The position numbers and the translations under genes were made by a program. Under the pieces are notes generated by a model. It searched no databases and was not told the DNA's origin. It was given only the letters and a program-made list of their open reading frames with translations. From the IMG/VR virus record IMGVR_UViG_3300008050_000048, positions 1 through 55,533 of that record: a stretch of 55,533 nt of DNA; one strand, given 5' to 3'. Source of the stretch: a virus. Position 1 is the first letter of the stretch; every line of letters begins with the position of its first letter. Positions 3,282 to 17,585 of the stretch are shown here, in pieces.

Positions 3282-3482
3282 ATGTTTGAAAAGTGGAAAC
3301 TATTTCTCGAAGCAAAATGCAAGACTCCTGGCGCAATCTATCACTTTAATATTAATAATAAAAGTGTTGGAGTTGAGGTAGAGTTGCCCTCTGAAATCGA
3401 TCTTGATGAAGAGAAGGCTAAAGAACTTGAAAATGAAATACATGATGCACTAGAGAACATATTAGCGAGGTTTTTTGAATAA
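3282..3482 (+). CDS. Small acidic hypothetical protein in the neck operon
   Basis: A 66-residue protein with no family I recognise. It has a short basic N-terminus (MFEKWKLFLEAKCK) and an acidic helical second half rich in Glu and Asp. It begins six bases after the gp13-like stop, and its stop shares a base with the next start (TAATG), so it is co-translated with the neck genes. A structural or assembly role is inferred from position only. Confidence 0.7.
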   Translation: MFEKWKLFLEAKCKTPGAIYHFNINNKSVGVEVELPSEIDLDEEKAKELENEIHDALENILARFFE

Positions 3483-4832: not shown

Positions 4833-7802
4833 ATGGCAGAATCAGCAAAGAATTTTCATTTCAGATCCCCTGGGATTAAGACACAAGAAATCGACCAATC
4901 GGAGATCCCAAACGCTGCGGAAGCACTTGGACCCGTAATTATTGGACGTGCAAAACGCGGACCAGCGTTTAAACCTGTTAAAGTCAACTCCTTTGATGAG
5001 TTTGTTAAGATCTTTGGCGAGCCTGTTGCTGGTGGAACTTCAAATGATGTTTGGAGAGACGGCAATCTTACCTCCCCAATGTATGGAGTCTATGGCGCAC
5101 AGTCTTGGTTAAAGAATGGTGAAGCTCTTACCTATGTTAGAGTTCTTGGTGATGCAAGTCCACAAGCAACTTCAGCCGGAAAGGCTGGTTGGACTGCTGG
5201 AGCTATTGGGACAGCGAAAGAGGCTGGTGGAGCTTACGGACTGTTTGTATTCCCATCTTCAAGTGCTGGCAACGTAGCTACTGCTCATTTGACAGGTGCT
5301 CTTGCTGCTGTCTTTTACATGGCCACAGGCTCAGGTGCTCCACAACTATCTGGTAACATCTATGCTGCACCAGGGCCAGTCGGTGCTACAACAGCAAGCA
5401 ACTCTATCCTAATCGAAAGTAATAATTCAGGAGATTTTGTAATTCAATTTACAGGCTCTAACTTACCATCAAGTAAGACAACTTTTTCGATGACAAAGAC
5501 GAAAGGCAACTTCATCAGAAAGGTATTTAATACCAACCCAACTCTTCTTGGAAGAAACAGTGAAACAGATGGTCAAGTTAACTATTTCCTAGGTGAAACC
5601 TACGAAGATACTTACAAGAGCGCAGTTTCAACAGGCTCTTATTTTACTGGTAGCGGTACTATCAGTTCTGATAAGTATGTCGGTGTTATCTTAGGCCTAA
5701 TGAGTGGAAGTTCGGTAGCAAACCACTCTATTAATCAAAACAGAGCACTACAAAGCTCAACTCTTCCAAAATCAGGTTGGTTCTTTACTCAGCATTTGTC
5801 ACAAGATACTGGTAGTTTTGATCCATCTAGCACAACTTTCTTTACAGATGGTACTGTAAAGAAGTTATTCAGATTCGTAGGTTTAGATACTGGCGAAGAT
5901 CTTCAGAATAACTTCAAAGTATCTATCGCTAACATTAAGCCATCATCTAATGAAGATGTAGAGCCTTATGGAACTTTCGATGTTGAAGTTCGTAGAATTC
6001 ACGACACTGATGAAAATATTTCCATGGTTGAAAGATACGTTGGGTGCACTCTGGACGTAAGCGCAGAATCTTACATTCTTAATGTAATCGGTGATAAGTA
6101 CACAGAATACGACGATACAAAAGCTCGACTTATCGAGAAAGGCTCCTACCCAAATAAGTCTAAATACATTAGAGTTGAAATCAACTCAGAGTTTGAGAGT
6201 GGTTTCGAGCCATCATATGTTCCTTTCGGAATTACAGGTCCTACAAAGTATAAAAACATTGACATCGATTCCGATAGTGCATTACGCGATGCAACTACTG
6301 CTTGGGTTACTGGTGGAACTAGCGCAGTATATGGAGCTTCGGCAGATGCAATAGTCACAGGCTCGGGTGCTGACATTCCTAACTTAAAGATTATGTTCCC
6401 AGAAGTTCCTGTTAGAACATCAACCTCGACACTTACTAATATTAGACAAGGATATTGGGGTGCATACTTAACTCCTGATGGAACAGACGCTTTTAACAAT
6501 TCAGTAAAAGACCACATTAGGTGCAAGCCAACTAATGTTGCTAACCATGATGAAGATACTTCAACAGTTTATCAATGGGTTATCTCACTTGACAACGTTA
6601 AGTATGATACAGCACCTGCTGCTAGTGCAAAAGGAGTTGGGACACTTGTTTACAGCAACTCTGCTAGGTATGATGGTTATTCGCTAACAGCAACAGCATC
6701 ATTGCCAACTAACTACCCTGATAGTAGCGATGCCCTGCTTTCTTACAAAGCACCACTCGCTCTTGGAGTTGGTAATCTTACTTCAGTATTCTATGGTGGA
6801 ACTAACGGCTTTGATATTACAGAGTCCGACCCTCTGAGAAATTCAAAGATTGCAACATCACCAACTTTAACAACAGATCCAGTTTATTACTCTTACAGAA
6901 GAGCGATTGACACGGTAAAGCATCCAGAAATTGCAGAGTATCACTTGATTGCAATCCCTGGAATGAATAACGAGAGTCTAAACAAAACTTTGGTAAACAA
7001 CTCTGCTGAGAGATCTGATGCTCTTGCTGTCATCGACATTGAAGAGAGTTACTTGCCTCCTCATGAGAGACTTTATGATTCTAGTGATAGAAATGCTGCT
7101 CAAATGGGTGATATTCAAACAGCTCTTGAAACATTTAAGAGTTGGAAGATGAACTCAAGTTATGGCGCTGCTTATTACCCATGGGTTCAGATTAGAGACT
7201 CAATTAGTGAGAAATCTGTATGGGTCCCACCTTCTGTTGCTGCCCTAGGAGCTCTGGCTTACACTGACAAGGTTGGTGGTCAATGGCAAGCTCCTGCTGG
7301 TTTCAACCGAGCAGGCCTCTCAAGTGGCGAAGCTGGTCTTCCAGTAAGCAACGTAGCTCTTAAACTCTTTAGTTCTGATAGAGATGACCTATATGACATC
7401 AATATCAACCCAATCGCTTCATTCCCAAACCAGGGTGTTGTAATTTGGGGTCAAAAGACTTTGCAGGTTAAGAGAAGTGGACTTGATAGAGTTAACGTCA
7501 GAAGACTAATGTTGCACCTTAAGAGAGGAATCTCACTTATCGGTGACACAGTTTTGTTTGAGCCAAACCTTGATGACACTTGGAAGAACTTCAAGAGACA
7601 AGCAGAGCCATTTTTGGCAGAAATTAAGGCGAAATTCGGCTTGGTAGATTATAAGCTTGTTCTCGATGAAACAACAACAACACCTGATCTAGTCGATCAG
7701 AACATAATGTATGTTCAAATTTGGGTTAAACCAGCGAAATCAATTGAATTTATTGCAGTTGACTTCTATTTAACTACATCAGGCGCTACCTTTAATGGAT
7801 AA
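4833..7802 (+). CDS. Contractile tail sheath protein, T4 gp18-like
   Basis: Main tail sheath subunit. The N-terminus has the sheath-type opening FRSPGIKTQEIDQSE, then GPVIIGRAKRGPAF and FDEFVKIFGEP. The conserved C-terminal domain has PWVQIRDS, VWVPPSVAALGALAYTD, then NININPIASFPNQGVVIWGQ followed by a RVNVRRLMLHLKRGI block and a terminal EFIAVDFYL strand. At 989 residues it is far longer than T4 gp18 (about 659). The excess is a Ser/Thr/Gly-rich middle region (roughly residues 130-560) that probably forms surface domains on the sheath. Start is ATG after AGGAGC. It is followed by two tail tube genes. The fold assignment is firm. Confidence 0.95.
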   Translation: MAESAKNFHFRSPGIKTQEIDQSEIPNAAEALGPVIIGRAKRGPAFKPVKVNSFDEFVKIFGEPVAGGTSNDVWRDGNLTSPMYGVYGAQSWLKNGEALTYVRVLGDASPQATSAGKAGWTAGAIGTAKEAGGAYGLFVFPSSSAGNVATAHLTGALAAVFYMATGSGAPQLSGNIYAAPGPVGATTASNSILIESNNSGDFVIQFTGSNLPSSKTTFSMTKTKGNFIRKVFNTNPTLLGRNSETDGQVNYFLGETYEDTYKSAVSTGSYFTGSGTISSDKYVGVILGLMSGSSVANHSINQNRALQSSTLPKSGWFFTQHLSQDTGSFDPSSTTFFTDGTVKKLFRFVGLDTGEDLQNNFKVSIANIKPSSNEDVEPYGTFDVEVRRIHDTDENISMVERYVGCTLDVSAESYILNVIGDKYTEYDDTKARLIEKGSYPNKSKYIRVEINSEFESGFEPSYVPFGITGPTKYKNIDIDSDSALRDATTAWVTGGTSAVYGASADAIVTGSGADIPNLKIMFPEVPVRTSTSTLTNIRQGYWGAYLTPDGTDAFNNSVKDHIRCKPTNVANHDEDTSTVYQWVISLDNVKYDTAPAASAKGVGTLVYSNSARYDGYSLTATASLPTNYPDSSDALLSYKAPLALGVGNLTSVFYGGTNGFDITESDPLRNSKIATSPTLTTDPVYYSYRRAIDTVKHPEIAEYHLIAIPGMNNESLNKTLVNNSAERSDALAVIDIEESYLPPHERLYDSSDRNAAQMGDIQTALETFKSWKMNSSYGAAYYPWVQIRDSISEKSVWVPPSVAALGALAYTDKVGGQWQAPAGFNRAGLSSGEAGLPVSNVALKLFSSDRDDLYDININPIASFPNQGVVIWGQKTLQVKRSGLDRVNVRRLMLHLKRGISLIGDTVLFEPNLDDTWKNFKRQAEPFLAEIKAKFGLVDYKLVLDETTTTPDLVDQNIMYVQIWVKPAKSIEFIAVDFYLTTSGATFNG

Positions 7803-7814
7803 GGAGAATAGATA

Positions 7815-8336
7815 ATGGCAACACCAATTTGGTCCCCAACCGCAGAGCCGATAAGAAAATTTAAGTTCTTATTAAATATCGCTGGTATTCCAACGTATAT
7901 GATTAAGACTTCCGACAGGCCACAGCAGACTATTGGGCAGCAAGAACACAAGTTCTTAGCTCAGACTTATAAGTTCCCTGGACAAGTTACCTGGAATGAC
8001 ATTGGAGTTACAATGGTTGATCTTGTTGATGTTGAAGCTGCTAAGGTATTATACAAAGCAGTCAAAGCATCTGGTTATGTTGCTCCAAGTGATTACGATA
8101 TGAGTGATAGCTCAAGTTCAAACTATTACAGAAGAACTCCTTCAAAGAGAAACGCTGTAAACTCACTTGGTAATGTAACTATCGAGATGCTAGATTCAGA
8201 CGGTAAGGTTGTTGAAGAATGGAAGCTTCATAATGTCTGGATTAAAGACGTTAATAACGATGGAGTTGGATATGAAGATGAAGGCCTTATCAATTTAACA
8301 CTGCAACTAGCTTATGATTGGGCTATTCTTACATAA
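7815..8336 (+). CDS. Tail tube protein, T4 gp19-like (first copy)
   Basis: Forms the inner tail tube beneath the sheath. At 173 residues it is close to T4 gp19 (163). Diagnostic features are a tube-type N-terminus (IRKFKFLLNIAG), a KFPGQVTWNDIGVTMVD strand pair, and a C-terminal IEMLDSDGKVVEEWKLHNVW motif ending in LAYDWAIL. The ATG is preceded by AAGGAG and lies 12 bases after the sheath stop. The next gene is a diverged copy, so this phage has two tube-type proteins. Confidence 0.92.
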   Translation: MATPIWSPTAEPIRKFKFLLNIAGIPTYMIKTSDRPQQTIGQQEHKFLAQTYKFPGQVTWNDIGVTMVDLVDVEAAKVLYKAVKASGYVAPSDYDMSDSSSSNYYRRTPSKRNAVNSLGNVTIEMLDSDGKVVEEWKLHNVWIKDVNNDGVGYEDEGLINLTLQLAYDWAILT

Positions 8337-8360: not shown

Positions 8361-8963
8361 ATGGCATTTAAGTTAAATTTAGATTTACCCGGAGAGCTTG
8401 CTCGGTTTGCTTCTAATAAGCGGATCAAGCAGGCTCCTCTATTTCAAAAAGACATGTTCTTTGATGCTCAACAGGCACATCGATTCTTTTTGAATATGCA
8501 TGGTATTAAAGCAGCATACATTTCAAATGTTGAAAGACCTTCCTATTCAATAGGAACAGAACAATATGTCTACCTAAACCATAAATTAAATTACCCAGGC
8601 CTAATTGAGTGGAGCCCTATTTCACTTACAATTAGAGAAATCTATACACCAGAAGCTTTTGGCTCTGTTTTGAGTAATCTAATGGCTAAATTAACTCATA
8701 TTTCTTATGAGACACCAACAGATCTTAGTCCAGATTTTGCAAAAAATATCTCAAAACAGAATTTAACTCTTGCTATGGAAAATACTATAATAGAATCTCT
8801 TGATCATAATGGAGTAACCCATGAAGCCTGGAAGCTTCACGGTGCCATGATAACATCTCTGAAGCCTTCACGACTATCCTATGAAGAGGACTCTCTTACG
8901 GGCATTGATGTTACGATTACTTATGATTGGGCCGACTATGCCTTCAAGGGCGTCTTTTTATAG
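8361..8963 (+). CDS. Tail tube-like protein (second copy)
   Basis: Paralog of the preceding tube protein. It shares the paired motifs KLNYPGLIEWSPISLTI, IIESLDHNGVTHEAWKLHG and the terminal TITYDWADYAF. It is 200 residues, with a longer N-terminus (residues 1-45). Such second gp19-like proteins may form a specialised ring (tube end or baseplate contact) rather than the bulk tube. That role is inferred, and which copy is the major tube protein cannot be decided from sequence. Confidence 0.85.
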   Translation: MAFKLNLDLPGELARFASNKRIKQAPLFQKDMFFDAQQAHRFFLNMHGIKAAYISNVERPSYSIGTEQYVYLNHKLNYPGLIEWSPISLTIREIYTPEAFGSVLSNLMAKLTHISYETPTDLSPDFAKNISKQNLTLAMENTIIESLDHNGVTHEAWKLHGAMITSLKPSRLSYEEDSLTGIDVTITYDWADYAFKGVFL

Positions 8964-8971
8964 AGGATTAA

Positions 8972-9790
8972 ATGAGAGATAACGAGAACAGGCTTCAAGC
9001 CAACCAAAGTATGCCAACTCCGAGCATGCCTACCTATACAGTACCAACAGATTTCGCAAAACTACCATCAGAGGGCAGGTTTTACCCACAAGAACACCCT
9101 TTGTATGGAAAAAAAGATGTTGAAATCAAGTTCATGACCACAAAAGAAGAAGATATTATTTCGAATGAGTCATATATTAAAAAAGGCATCACAGTTGAAA
9201 GATTATTGGGTAGTTTGCTGGTTGATAAGCGTATTGACCCAAAAACACTGCTCGCCGGGGATCAGAATGCAATTCTTGTTAATGCTAGAAAGAATGCTTA
9301 CGGTCCAAACTATGAACTAAACGTATCTTGCGAAGTATGTGAGACCAAAAATGATATTGTTATAGATCTTAACAGTGATGACTTCGTAATCAAGTCAGAT
9401 CCAGAGCTTGCAGTTACTAATTCGGGAACTTTCTTTGTAGAATTACCAGTAAGTAAATTAAAACTTGAACTAAGACTGCTGACAGGTGAAGATGAAGCCG
9501 AAATCGAGAAATCTTTGAAACAAAAGGCTGACGCTGGATTAGAACTAGAACCCTTATCCGCTCGACTGATGAAAATGATTGTATCAATTAACGGAAATGC
9601 ATCCTTCCCGGTAAAAGCAGGTCTGGTCTCGCAAGGCTTGCTTTTGAGAGACTCAGATGCGGTAAAGGATGCACATTTTAAAGCGAATCCCGCTTATCGA
9701 GTAAGTATGGATGTTCCTTGTAAAATGTGTGGAACGCATATTAAGGGGGTTGTGCCCTTAACGGCTAACTTTTTTTGGCCTAACGGATAA
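8972..9790 (+). CDS. Baseplate hub / tail assembly protein, T4 gp26-like (frame 0 product)
   Basis: 272-residue protein of the gp26-type family found in T4-like marine phages. Its core is FAKLPSEGRFYPQEHP, then VEIKFMTTKEEDIISNESYI, then GITVERLLGSLLVDKRIDPK, GDQNAILVNARKNAYGPNYE, and two Cys pairs (CEVC near residue 122 and CKMC near residue 249) that could bind zinc. It ends NFFWPNG on a run of seven T, and another open frame continues directly after it. It lies just before the tape measure gene, the usual place of a frameshifted tail assembly chaperone. Confidence 0.82.
   Translation: MRDNENRLQANQSMPTPSMPTYTVPTDFAKLPSEGRFYPQEHPLYGKKDVEIKFMTTKEEDIISNESYIKKGITVERLLGSLLVDKRIDPKTLLAGDQNAILVNARKNAYGPNYELNVSCEVCETKNDIVIDLNSDDFVIKSDPELAVTNSGTFFVELPVSKLKLELRLLTGEDEAEIEKSLKQKADAGLELEPLSARLMKMIVSINGNASFPVKAGLVSQGLLLRDSDAVKDAHFKANPAYRVSMDVPCKMCGTHIKGVVPLTANFFWPNG
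9767..9778 (+). other. Probable programmed frameshift site (T7 slippery run, +1 or -2)
   Basis: In the gp26-like frame the codons read AAC TTT TTT TGG, followed by three sense codons and TAA. The run of seven T (9770-9776) allows a tRNA-Phe to re-pair after a +1 or -2 slip. The shifted frame is open from 9762 and continues for about 50 codons through 9923. That product has the look of the C-terminal extension seen in related hub/chaperone proteins. Slippage itself is not demonstrated by sequence. Confidence 0.55.
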
Positions 9791-9923
9791 ATACGTTACA
9801 GAAATCTATGATGCTATTTTCGAGTTCACAATAAGAACTTCGTGGACATTCTTTCAATTGTATTCAATACCTATTAAGCTAAGGGATTATTATATCAATA
9901 AGCTTTATAATGAAAAGAAATAA
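9774..9923 (+). CDS. C-terminal extension of the gp26-like protein reached by frameshift
   Basis: Short frame without a good start of its own. From the slippery run it reads GLTDKYVTEIYDAIFEFTI, continuing to YSIPIKLRDYYINKLYNEKK and TAA. In related proteins the segment after FFxP typically continues as a helical IYEEIF...LPVxxRxW block in one frame, and this sequence has that pattern (IYDAIF, then IPIKLRDYY). It therefore looks like coding sequence fused by frameshifting, not an independent gene. A weak alternative is a separate small gene starting at GTT or ATT inside this frame. Confidence 0.6.
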   Translation, partial: FGLTDKYVTEIYDAIFEFTIRTSWTFFQLYSIPIKLRDYYINKLYNEKK

Positions 9924-9950: not shown

Positions 9951-11579
9951 ATGTCAACAAAAGAAAATCAAGTTGCAGCATTCTGGAAAGCAGTTAGAAA
10001 TGATAACACAAAAGCGGCAAGACGTGTTCTTGATGCGATGCCGAGCGGAACTGAAACAAACAAACTCAGGAAATATCTATCAAGTATAAAAGCAAGTGGC
10101 AACAAGAGTTTTAAACAGAATGTAAAAGATGAATTTAACCTCAATGGATTTTCATCTTTCGGTGAAACTATTCGCACCTTGACACAGAAATCATATAATC
10201 TTTCAAAAGTAGTAGAAACAAATCGCATTGAGTTGCAGAAATCCTTCGGGAAAAACTCAGCATTTACCAGAGAGTTTATTGTAAATCTTGAGAAGAAAGG
10301 TAGAAATCTTGCGGACCTGGGATCCTCTTTCGATGAGCTTACCGAAGTTTCCACTGCTTTCGCAGAAGGCTATGTTAAAACTGCGACAAAGCCTATGTCC
10401 AAGACTATAGATCATTATAGTGAATTTGCGATGGTCAATAAAAGATTTGGTTTTGGTGTTAAAGAGACTGTAGAGTTTGTGAACAAGCTGACTACTGGGG
10501 CAAATTTAGCAGGAAACAAGATTCGTGACCTAGGTTCAAGAATGTTTCAAGCTCATAGGGAGACTGGCGTTCCTTACGGAACCCTTATGCGGGATCTTAC
10601 AAGCAACTTTTATGATTTATCTGATCAAGTTACTAAGGTTTCAACGAGTAGTGTTTCAAAAGAGTTTATGAAGTTCTCTGCTGTTGCCAGAAGGACTGGT
10701 GAAAGTGTCTCAACTCTTATTGGAATGACGAAACAATTTGATACTATTGGCACTGGTATGGCTGCCGGTGGTAAAATGAACAGGTTGCTACAACACTTTG
10801 GAAGCTCATTTGACACAGCCAAAGCCATGTTGATGAACCGCTCAGATCGTATGAAATATATTATCTCAAGAGTAGCTAAAGCCGGTGATCGATTTAGACA
10901 AGGCTCAGAGCACCAAAGAAGAGCTATGATGGTAGCTTTTAGAGATACTGGCTTACCAGAAGGCCTTATCAGACAAGCCCTCGCTGTAAAAAGTGCATCA
11001 GGAATTCAAGCCCTGATGGAAAGGACTATGAAAACTAGTGGCGGTAACAGTGCCAAAGGTGCTATGAGAGATCGAGCAGGTGAAATGACATCAAGGGCTC
11101 AAAGAGAGAGGGCTAGATATGATGGTCTGTTAAAAGCAGCAGTTTCTCTTGAGAGAATCACTTCGAAAGTTGAAAGAGGAATCACTCTTACTTTCAGGAA
11201 AGTGATCCCAACCTTACTCGGTAAGTTATTCGATAACAAAATTGGAAAAAGTTTAGGAAATATTAGCTCAGGATTTGAAGAAAAAGTTAACGAAATACTT
11301 GAAAAAGGCCTCCGAGCAAAATTAGGAGGCCTTAACGGCCCGGTTACAATTAATTGGGCAGAAGAATCAAGAGTTGGTGAGATCCAGGCGAATACACTTA
11401 AGATCAGAACCGTCGAAAACCAAGCTTCTCAAGAGCGCAGCCGAATAAAAGAAAGACGAGATGCCGAATCTCACTCACATCTTAGTTATTTACCTATAAT
11501 AGCAAGGCACTTGGAAAGAATAGCATCTAGGAGCGGACAACCAGTTGCGCCTGTTAGGCCTAAAAGAATAGGAGAATAA
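9951..11579 (+). CDS. Tail tape measure protein (gp29-like position)
   Basis: Largely helical 542-residue protein, lysine- and arginine-rich, with Gly/Ala stretches (roughly residues 255-300) and an amphipathic C-terminal half. It lies right after the putative frameshifting chaperone and before the tube-initiator and baseplate genes, the standard tape measure position. Its length is similar to T4 gp29 (590), which would predict a tail of roughly T4-like length. No lytic domain is visible. The call rests on position, composition and size; I see no catalytic motif. Confidence 0.65.
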   Translation: MSTKENQVAAFWKAVRNDNTKAARRVLDAMPSGTETNKLRKYLSSIKASGNKSFKQNVKDEFNLNGFSSFGETIRTLTQKSYNLSKVVETNRIELQKSFGKNSAFTREFIVNLEKKGRNLADLGSSFDELTEVSTAFAEGYVKTATKPMSKTIDHYSEFAMVNKRFGFGVKETVEFVNKLTTGANLAGNKIRDLGSRMFQAHRETGVPYGTLMRDLTSNFYDLSDQVTKVSTSSVSKEFMKFSAVARRTGESVSTLIGMTKQFDTIGTGMAAGGKMNRLLQHFGSSFDTAKAMLMNRSDRMKYIISRVAKAGDRFRQGSEHQRRAMMVAFRDTGLPEGLIRQALAVKSASGIQALMERTMKTSGGNSAKGAMRDRAGEMTSRAQRERARYDGLLKAAVSLERITSKVERGITLTFRKVIPTLLGKLFDNKIGKSLGNISSGFEEKVNEILEKGLRAKLGGLNGPVTINWAEESRVGEIQANTLKIRTVENQASQERSRIKERRDAESHSHLSYLPIIARHLERIASRSGQPVAPVRPKRIGE

Positions 11580-16381: not shown

Positions 16382-16412
16382 GATAGACTTATTCTCACAA
16401 ATAGAGGTGAAA

Positions 16413-17585
16413 ATGAGCTTTCAAGTTTTAGAAACAAGTAAAAAATGTGCAACGATATATAAAGATGATAAATTACATACAAGAATCTTTCCAAAAAACC
16501 TAGATGCTACTTGGTCTCCACACTGTGAGATGCCATTAGACGTGTTATATGCAAAACACTATGTGGCAGGGCTCTCAATCGAAGAAGTCACGCCAGAGAA
16601 CCTCCTAGGCCCCTTGAAGAAGGCATCTGATAAGATGCAGGCCTGTGCGAAAGCATTGGTAAGCTCAAAAGTAAACTTAACAGATAATTGTCTTCATGAA
16701 GTCATACCTTTTAGAATTTTAAAAGAGTTTTATGACCTTAAAAATCAAGTTGTCGATCATGTTATTGAGTCAAGGGAGCAACCAAAGAATTATCAATTCC
16801 TGGTAGACTTAGATCTCTTACTGCAAGAAATGGCTAAACAAGAGTTAAATCTTAAAAGAGTTCGAACTCTTATGTTGCCAACTAGATCAGACAAGATCAA
16901 AGCAACAAAGCTCGTTAAGGGACCCAACAAGGTCTTGTATAAAATGAATGCTTCGAAAACTGGGAGGCTTACTTTACATGAAGAAAGTTTCCCTATTCTT
17001 AATTTAAAGAAGAATCTCAGAACTGTAATATATCCAAAAAATGATTTATTTCTAGAATTGGATTTTAATGCTAGTGAAGTAAGAACTCTTTTGGCTTTAT
17101 CCGGTATTGAACAGCCAGGAATAGATATTCATGAGTGGAATATTCTGAATATTTTCAAAGGAAATACAGATAGGGCCGAAGCAAAGAGTAAGTTCTTCTT
17201 CTGGTTATTTAATCCAGAAGCAGTAAATCTTGCCATAGAGAAATTCTATAGTAAGAAGATAGTTGACAATTACTACCAAGATGGTATGATAGTGACACCT
17301 TTCCACAGAAAGATTCCGTCAGATGATTTTCACGCACTAAATTACTTAGTGCAGAGCACTGCATCTGATAACTTTTTAACACAAGCTCTAAAATTACATA
17401 AGTATCTAAATAAGAAACGCTCGTTCGTGTCATTGTTGATGCACGATGCTATCCTAATAGACTTATCGTATGAAGAGATATCGGATCTTGAGGAAATTGT
17501 GGATATATTCTCTAAAACTACTCTTGGTAAGTTTAAGATAAACAAGTCCATTGGTAAGAATTACGGAGAAATGAAAGCAGTATGA
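16413..17585 (+). CDS. Minimal family A DNA polymerase (palm/fingers only, no proofreading domain)
   Basis: Compact Pol I-type polymerase of 390 residues. Every active-site motif is visible: TGRL (183-186), motif A DFNASEVR with catalytic D217 and E222, a fingers block DRAEAKSKFFFW (253-264), NYLVQSTASD (310-319, the family A NxxxQxxxxD pattern) and motif C MHDAI with H344 and D345. Motif A normally reads DYSQIELR; the N and A at its centre are unusual. There is no 3'-5' or 5'-3' exonuclease domain. GTG at 16407 is also possible, but AGAGGTGA fits ATG at 16413. The stop overlaps the next start (ATGA). Confidence 0.88.
   Translation: MSFQVLETSKKCATIYKDDKLHTRIFPKNLDATWSPHCEMPLDVLYAKHYVAGLSIEEVTPENLLGPLKKASDKMQACAKALVSSKVNLTDNCLHEVIPFRILKEFYDLKNQVVDHVIESREQPKNYQFLVDLDLLLQEMAKQELNLKRVRTLMLPTRSDKIKATKLVKGPNKVLYKMNASKTGRLTLHEESFPILNLKKNLRTVIYPKNDLFLELDFNASEVRTLLALSGIEQPGIDIHEWNILNIFKGNTDRAEAKSKFFFWLFNPEAVNLAIEKFYSKKIVDNYYQDGMIVTPFHRKIPSDDFHALNYLVQSTASDNFLTQALKLHKYLNKKRSFVSLLMHDAILIDLSYEEISDLEEIVDIFSKTTLGKFKINKSIGKNYGEMKAV

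Follow-up and report, generated by a model that had tools for sequence, protein, structure and literature searches.

The window analysed here, a 55,533-nucleotide stretch of viral DNA (positions 1 to 55,533 of IMG/VR record IMGVR_UViG_3300008050_000048), carries a gene of the T4 gp26 family that would give rise to a pair of tail assembly chaperones, one short and one long, by slippage on a run of T residues near its 3′ end. On the basis of the sequence comparisons described below, we put the probability of this reading at roughly 85%. In many T4-like phages, one tail-building protein seems to be produced in two lengths, with the ribosome slipping at a conserved T run of this kind, and the arrangement is more general than a preliminary description of this DNA had supposed.

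The 5′ region of the window is a myovirus tail module, composed of a sheath gene (4833-7802), two tail tube genes and the gp26-like gene. The two gp19-like tube genes are consecutive, at 7815-8336 (plus strand; PHROG 4542, E = 2e-20) and 8361-8963 (plus strand; PHROG 4542, E = 9e-17), the latter lying directly 5′ of the gp26-like gene. In the zero frame, the gp26-like gene (8972-9790, plus strand) encodes a short product of 272 residues. This protein is a member of PF12322 (T4_baseplate), which it matches over residues 46-268 with a Pfam E value of 9e-10 and a score of 39.0 bits, above the curated cut-off of 24.5, and it also matches PHROG 150 (baseplate hub) with an E value of 1.1e-14. Elsewhere in the window, 16407-17585 encodes a DNA polymerase A-like protein of 392 residues, of which only a 60-residue stretch aligns with PF00476, slightly below the cut-off.

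The 3′ end of the gp26-like gene reads AAC TTT TTT TGG CCT AAC GGA TAA, with seven consecutive T residues at 9770-9776 in the putative frameshift site TTT TTT TGG CCT (9770-9781, plus strand). The frame that would be reached by a +1 or a −2 shift is open from 9762 to 9923, immediately 3′ of a TAA at 9759-9761, and encodes ...FFGLTDKYVTEIYDAIFEFTIRTSWTFFQLYSIPIKLRDYYINKLYNEKK. Both the T run and the overlapping open frame had been pointed out in the preliminary description, and both are present. The sole ATG, GTG or TTG in the open frame is a TTG at 9858, far inside it. We propose that peptidyl-tRNA-Phe slips by +1 at this site, moving from UUU to the UUU that begins one base further along. Such a slip would add an extension in the shifted frame (9774-9923, plus strand), consisting of 49 residues past the slip and ending at a TAA stop (9921-9923). 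The fused long product (8972-9920, plus strand) would contain 316 residues, with one base skipped, or 317 residues if the shift were −2.

The next ORF (9951-11579, plus strand) was previously described as the tape measure gene. It does start at 9951, and its identity is presumed from its position: a Pfam search of this ORF gave no match above the cut-off, and its comparison with the annotated tape measure protein of phage immuto revealed no similarity. It matches just two of the 155 next-ORF proteins, its own protein being in that set. Among the relatives, 129 of 155 have a next ORF similar to the annotated tape measure of immuto, and other neighbours lie beside the gp26-like gene in several jumbo phages.

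The junction is conserved in distant relatives. A tblastn search with the zero-frame protein detected nine phage records with 25-32% identity, corresponding to five distinct phages (immuto, Mel-JY01, LR756508, LR756511 and SP-15). In one record of each, the gp26-like frame stops soon after an F-F/L motif and the overlapping frame continues. Two IMG/VR contigs with different metagenome identifiers (L001 and L002) bear a junction identical to that of the window, their samples possibly not being independent. We pooled the tblastn records with three IMG/VR profile scans, each represented by its best 80 of some 600 matches. The resulting 244 records were reduced to 241, the rest having no stop before the contig end, and then to 193 distinct junctions, the window included, as compared over a 210-base stretch at the junction.

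Among the matches listed, TTT is followed by a pyrimidine-initial codon in all 193 junctions, and 190 of the 193 have the site TTT-YTT-T. The twelve bases of the window, TTT TTT TGG CCT, are found in 140 of these 193 listed junctions; the others have TTT CTT TGG CCT (26/193), TTT TTT TAC CCT (12/193), TTT TTT TGG CCA (5/193), TTT CTT TAC CCT (3/193) or one of seven further variants, T8 and T9 runs included. An extension profile matched 190 of the 193 listed junctions, always in the +1/−2 frame; since it was built from 186 of these same loci, this figure reflects consistency and is no independent test. Of the three junctions without a profile match, two are truncated where their contigs stop, and the third, in L006, uses −1. 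The longest downstream frame is other than +1 in seven of the 193 junctions, six of which still bear the +1 extension according to the profile, the seventh being L006. In bacterial bins 14 loci were found, and all 12 that were examined agree in both site and extension; L255 and L257 were omitted (same contig; partial). Homologues without the extension, or with unrelated sequence in its place, had been named beforehand as evidence against the proposal that a +1 or −2 slip on T7 yields a longer gp26-type hub protein or chaperone. The proposal withstood this comparison over the 193 junctions and the 12 bacterial-bin loci, and the conserved site and extension argue for such a slip.

In L137 and L149, an in-frame TGA occurs within the extension, at 3294-3296 in both. 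Further in-frame TGA codons are present in the sheath-position frame (four in each) and the tube-position frame (three in each), and L137 has another ten in its downstream long frame. These two look like phages in which TGA has been reassigned, with the TTTTTTTGG site still in use, and the reassignment would explain the TGA in their extensions. As regards existing annotation, a small separate hypothetical gene is placed over the extension in L003 (3333-3443), L004 (3234-3470), L007 (3312-3431) and L298 (3244-3366), and no gene is annotated over it in Listeria phage LIS04 (L290).

The extension is under protein-level selection. Over 41 independent pairs, its dN/dS is 0.144 in the shifted frame, as compared to 1.39 and 1.98 in the other two frames, which are interrupted by 271 and 651 stop codons, respectively, across 82 sequences. 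In the same 41 pairs, the differences by codon position of the shifted frame number 331, 211 and 863. In L058, where the site has TGG GTT in place of TGG CCT, the Gly-Leu of the shifted frame is kept and the zero-frame Pro is changed to Val.

With regard to the direction of the slip, the pairing arguments assume standard anticodons. A single rule, by which tRNA-Phe leaves UUU and re-pairs with the UUY one base further along (+1), fits every +1 locus read, and pairing considerations favour +1 at UUU_Y rather than −2. Codon 1 is TTT in 192 of 192 junctions, a count over related and thus not independent sequences, while TTT accounts for 79% of the upstream Phe codons in the same genes. At 187 of 192 loci, the third codon read in the zero frame across the site specifies Trp or Tyr. 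The odd sites, namely TTT CTA TTC in L005, TTT TTT AGT in LIS04 and TTC TTT CGT in Streptococcus phage GXN1, are also compatible with +1 at UUU_Y. A slip resembling that of prfB, on the second codon only, would not need an invariant TTT at codon 1; this candidate was rejected, as it fails for L005 and LIS04. Given that neither of these two can use the second codon for +1, UUU_Y would be the common denominator.

A −2 shift, as in phage Mu, reaches the same frame and would leave an extra Phe in the product (NFFFGL as compared to NFFGL). The invariance of the third T of codon 1 (192/192) suits it equally, as this base would also be needed for re-pairing with YUU at −2. However, the GXN1 site, GAA TTC TTT CGT, would put a C at the middle position after a −2 shift, whereas the +1 re-pairing from UUU to UUC is perfect, and −2 pairing is also poor at L005 (TTT CTA). 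We therefore regard the −2 shift as unlikely. The predicted tryptic peptide across the window junction is GVVPLTANFFGLTDK for +1 and GVVPLTANFFFGLTDK for −2. When 70 nucleotides on each side were folded for 71 loci, no clear signal of a stimulatory RNA structure emerged (mean z −0.61 downstream and −0.62 upstream; z < −2 in 12 and 9 of the 71 loci, respectively), and no other stimulator was found near the slip site.

Beyond the relatives that share the +1 frame, cyanophages, jumbo phages and some Straboviridae have a gp26-like gene with the same kind of end and a −1 continuation. The gene ends with T TTT TTC and continues in the −1 frame in the jumbo phages MIJ3, Atu_ph07, RaK2, 121Q and Vibrio 2.275.O, as well as in cyanophage DSL-LC02 and the Straboviridae member Ah1, and RAS14 has T TTT TTT followed by a −1 continuation. 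The −1 arrangement is also found in L006, L285-L287, P-SSM2 and ValKK3. The Straboviridae with −1 at T_TTT_TTY are Ah1, ValKK3 and Aeh1. In Aeh1, gp26 ends with GAT TTT TTC GAC TGA, and the −1 frame continues from the TTTTTTC site with an unannotated extension (L385, 1167-1346) that matches the Ah1 tail.

A scan with a cyanophage protein, from which the best 80 of 127 matches were used, provided 69 distinct junctions after L368, which has no stop, was dropped. Within these best 80 of 127 matches, TTTTTTY occurs in 69 of 69 junctions (68 TTTTTTC and one TTTTTTT), and the −1 tail exceeds 35 residues in 68 of the 69. A profile of the cyanophage tail was built from 68 of the 69, the omitted one apparently being L322, whose contig ends early. 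In hhalign comparisons, this profile matched the window-type extension with an E value of 2.9e-6 (0 of 50 shuffles) and the tail of T4 gp51 with an E value of 1.2e-13 and a score of 64 (0 of 50 shuffles, maximum 24.8). A profile of nine jumbo-type −1 tails likewise matched the window-type extension (E = 9.9e-10; 0 of 50 shuffles) and the gp51 tail (E = 1e-4; 0 of 50 shuffles). The +1 extension profile alone did not detect the −1 tail of L006.

Cyanophages and vibriophages have the same gp26 end as the window and a tail related to its extension, but they would use −1 at T_TTT_TTC, in contrast to +1 in the window clade, and their tail is annotated as a separate gene, a small 'gp51'. In Sullivan et al. 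2010 (PMC3037559), cyanophage gp51 is described as having about 20% of the usual length, with the first ~200 residues absent, and as resembling the C-terminal part of other gp51 proteins, and gp51 is said to be missing only in Aeh1. Both the shortness of the cyanophage 'gp51' and its absence from Aeh1 would follow if the tail is the −1 extension of gp26, and we consider it likely that what is annotated as a truncated 'gp51' in cyanophages is the tail that gp26 gains by frameshifting. PMC5349666 lists both gp51 and gp26 for phage DLP6, in adjacent entries, with a gp51 far closer to that of cyanophages than to that of T4.

In T4 itself, both gp26 (208 residues) and gp51 (249 residues) belong to PF12322, with E values of 9e-64 and 4e-52. 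T4 gp26 stops at the end of the domain, where the short form of the window also ends, and gp51 runs about 48 residues further and bears the same kind of tail as the window fusion. The window-type extension profile aligned with the gp51 tail with an hhalign score of 23.0 and an E value of 2.6e-4 (0 of 100 shuffles, maximum 16.7). The profile of the phage fusion could be aligned with ten gp51 proteins up to their ends, and with gp26 only up to a point no more than six residues from the junction; the whole-length hhalign matches of the fusion are weak (gp51, E = 3e-4, probability 18%; gp26, E = 1e-4, probability 29%). From these profile alignments, the window fusion appears to be a gp51-type long form, with a PF12322 domain followed by a tail like residues 201-249 of gp51.

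The difference is that T4 would obtain the short and long forms from two genes, with no T6 run at the end of gp26, whereas the window would obtain them from one. The last 15 codons of gp26 lack a T6 run in 10 of 10 two-gene Straboviridae. In a rough tree whose root was not placed, the single-gene proteins, including those of Ah1 and ValKK3, group with a support of 0.995. The gp51 proteins make up a clade, but the gp26 proteins are split, those of RB43 and KLB15 lying beside gp51 (0.586). The two T4 genes probably arose by duplication. In RB43 and in a Slopekvirus (L282, 1001-2294, and L283, 1001-2295), the gp51-like and gp26-like genes are in tandem, the long one preceding the short one, and the T4 pair is divergent.

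The two parts also occur as a single ORF elsewhere, as the preliminary description had suggested looking for: in addition to T4 gp51, six proteins drawn from an actinobacterial phylum encode the gp26-like domain and the tail without interruption (L264, 1349-2080, minus strand; L265, 1387-2121; L268, L269, L270 and L274). They come from genomes belonging to the same phylum as a bin with the title Actinomycetes; L271 and L273 were set aside as partial or unrelated, and L272 was left out. By eye, two of the six adjoin a gp19-like tube gene. A PF12322 match turned up in 3 of 296 genomes drawn from the phylum, and the L265 protein was present in 7 of 198. The direct HMM match between the phage fusion and these proteins amounts to 3-4 bits only, and profile-profile comparison performed better: the window-type extension aligned with the six tails with a score of 18.0 (0 of 100 shuffles, maximum 15.1). 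Judging from their uninterrupted frames, these relatives would make only the long form, which counts against the model of a short and long pair.

Separate translation of the extension, from an internal start or by re-initiation after the gp26 stop, is what the annotated small 'gp51' gene of cyanophages assumes. Among the 533 records that matched the cyanophage tail, at least 33 of the 60 rows listed carry a 'hub assembly catalyst' annotation at the match. In P-SSM2, an ATG follows the gp26 stop at a distance of three bases, and an ATG lies within the first 12 codons in 59 of the 69 cyanophage-type junctions (best 80 of 127 matches). Yet seven of the 69 have no start within those codons, while TTTTTTY is present in all 69; separate initiation of the cyanophage tail does not explain the invariant T6 run. 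In the window clade, some ATG, GTG or TTG occurs within the inspected stretch in 123 of 188 loci (ATG in 69), but without a conserved start position, and only 19 of the 188 combine a start with an SD-like motif, five of them with ATG. The window holds one internal TTG only, and the two parts are fused in gp51 and in the single-ORF relatives. Separate translation seems very unlikely as a general explanation of the extension, although it may apply in cyanophages.

Slippage of RNA polymerase on the T run would produce mixed mRNAs, and the extension would be reached without a ribosomal shift. Runs of T7-T9 at many sites are in keeping with this, but 29 of the 193 sites are interrupted (TTTCTTT) and offer T3 runs only, and the frame is still kept, making polymerase slippage highly improbable. 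An assembly or sequencing error, to which a homopolymer is prone, or a decaying pseudogene is contradicted by conservation over 193 junctions and in isolated named phages, under purifying selection, and has a negligible chance of being correct.

Ribosomal slippage to a conserved extension is in agreement with the organization of known frameshifted chaperones. As in lambda gpG/gpGT, two overlapping frames, here close to a presumed tape measure gene, are joined by a slip site, and a short and a C-terminally extended product would result; on its overlapping frames, conserved slip site and conserved extension, the window locus seems to fit the G/GT kind. It differs from lambda in its protein family, T4 gp26 (PF12322; ~250-270 residues), which has a weak fold similarity to the HK97 chaperone. 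An AlphaFold2 model of the short form of the window had a pLDDT of 91.3, and the best solved fold for the gp26 model was the HK97 tail assembly chaperone (2ob9_B), with a Z score of 5.8, below the safe level, over 86 of 104 residues at an rmsd of 4.9; the next solved fold had a Z score of 2.9. Foldseek placed the HK97 chaperone at rank 4 (E = 1.3, probability 0.41). This link between predicted and solved folds is weak, a lead rather than proof. The fused window protein folded as a single sequence gave a pLDDT of 31.7 and was discarded, and the fused alignment (A5), when searched against the sequences of solved structures, returned a de novo protein alone (E = 0.24). DUF6760, which we take to be an eCIS neighbour, had no mention that we could find in the open-access literature.

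The slip proposed for the window is like that of prfB (RF2), where the P-site tRNA slips by +1 on a U-rich codon at CUU_UGA, and 29 relatives have TTT CTT T. It differs in that the A site of the window holds no stop codon and no conserved stimulator was seen. A slip at CUU_U is described in PMC10885494. The preliminary description had considered a +1 or −2 shift unusual for a gp26-type protein; according to PMC5009743, frameshifted chaperones, a group to which that of P2 also belongs, vary in direction, being −1, −2 (Mu) or, very likely, +1 (HSTV-2). The same review describes the G-T frameshift as widely conserved 'except T4'.

We infer that slippage does occur at the window locus, in the +1 direction and with an efficiency that would let most ribosomes stop at 9788, releasing the short gp26-like protein. 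In a minority, tRNA-Phe on UUU would slip by +1 and re-pair with the UUY one base on, producing the 316-residue protein, which would end in a C-terminal tail of ~50 residues. If the lambda gpG/gpGT pair is a guide, the domain common to both forms may bind or coat the tape measure protein, and the tail carried by the less abundant long form may recruit tube subunits; this is a candidate role that rests on functional analogy. In T4, the short form would be gp26, which has no slippery site, and the long form gp51, from two genes.

Previous work on T4 bears on this model in both directions. PMC3004832 lists gp26 and gp51 as hub assembly chaperones, and PMC9024508 mentions proposals of chaperone or cofactor roles for both. 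In the former source, the tape measure protein gp29 is a hub component, so that an effect of gp26 and gp51 on the T4 hub would fit the model. On the other hand, that source cites genetic work for gp26 within the hub, and reports gp51 as absent from the particle and gp26 as disputed; a gp26 located in the hub would fit poorly with a chaperone that leaves. In PMC5587285, PMC6992544 and PMC9837993, the gene numbers 26 and 51 are used for other things. We found no paper in the open-access literature that proposes a gp26 frameshift or a short and long gp26/gp51 pair.

Taken together, the comparisons make it likely that T4 is no exception to the G/GT scheme: gp26 and gp51 would be the short and long chaperones for gp29, made from two related genes, while other T4-type phages would make them from one gene, by −1 at T_TTT_TTY or +1 at UUU_Y, the cyanophage 'gp51' being the gp26 tail. 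This reading offers an answer to the seeming lack of a frameshifted tail chaperone in T4 and to the role of the essential, non-structural gp51. It would also explain why cyanophage gp51 seems to be 80% truncated and why Aeh1 seems to be without gp51, and it suggests that in many phage records this gene has been entered as two, or in truncated form. Finally, a +1 site at UUU_Y that has no stop codon and is found in well over 100 natural variants of its surroundings would serve the study of the frameshift mechanism.
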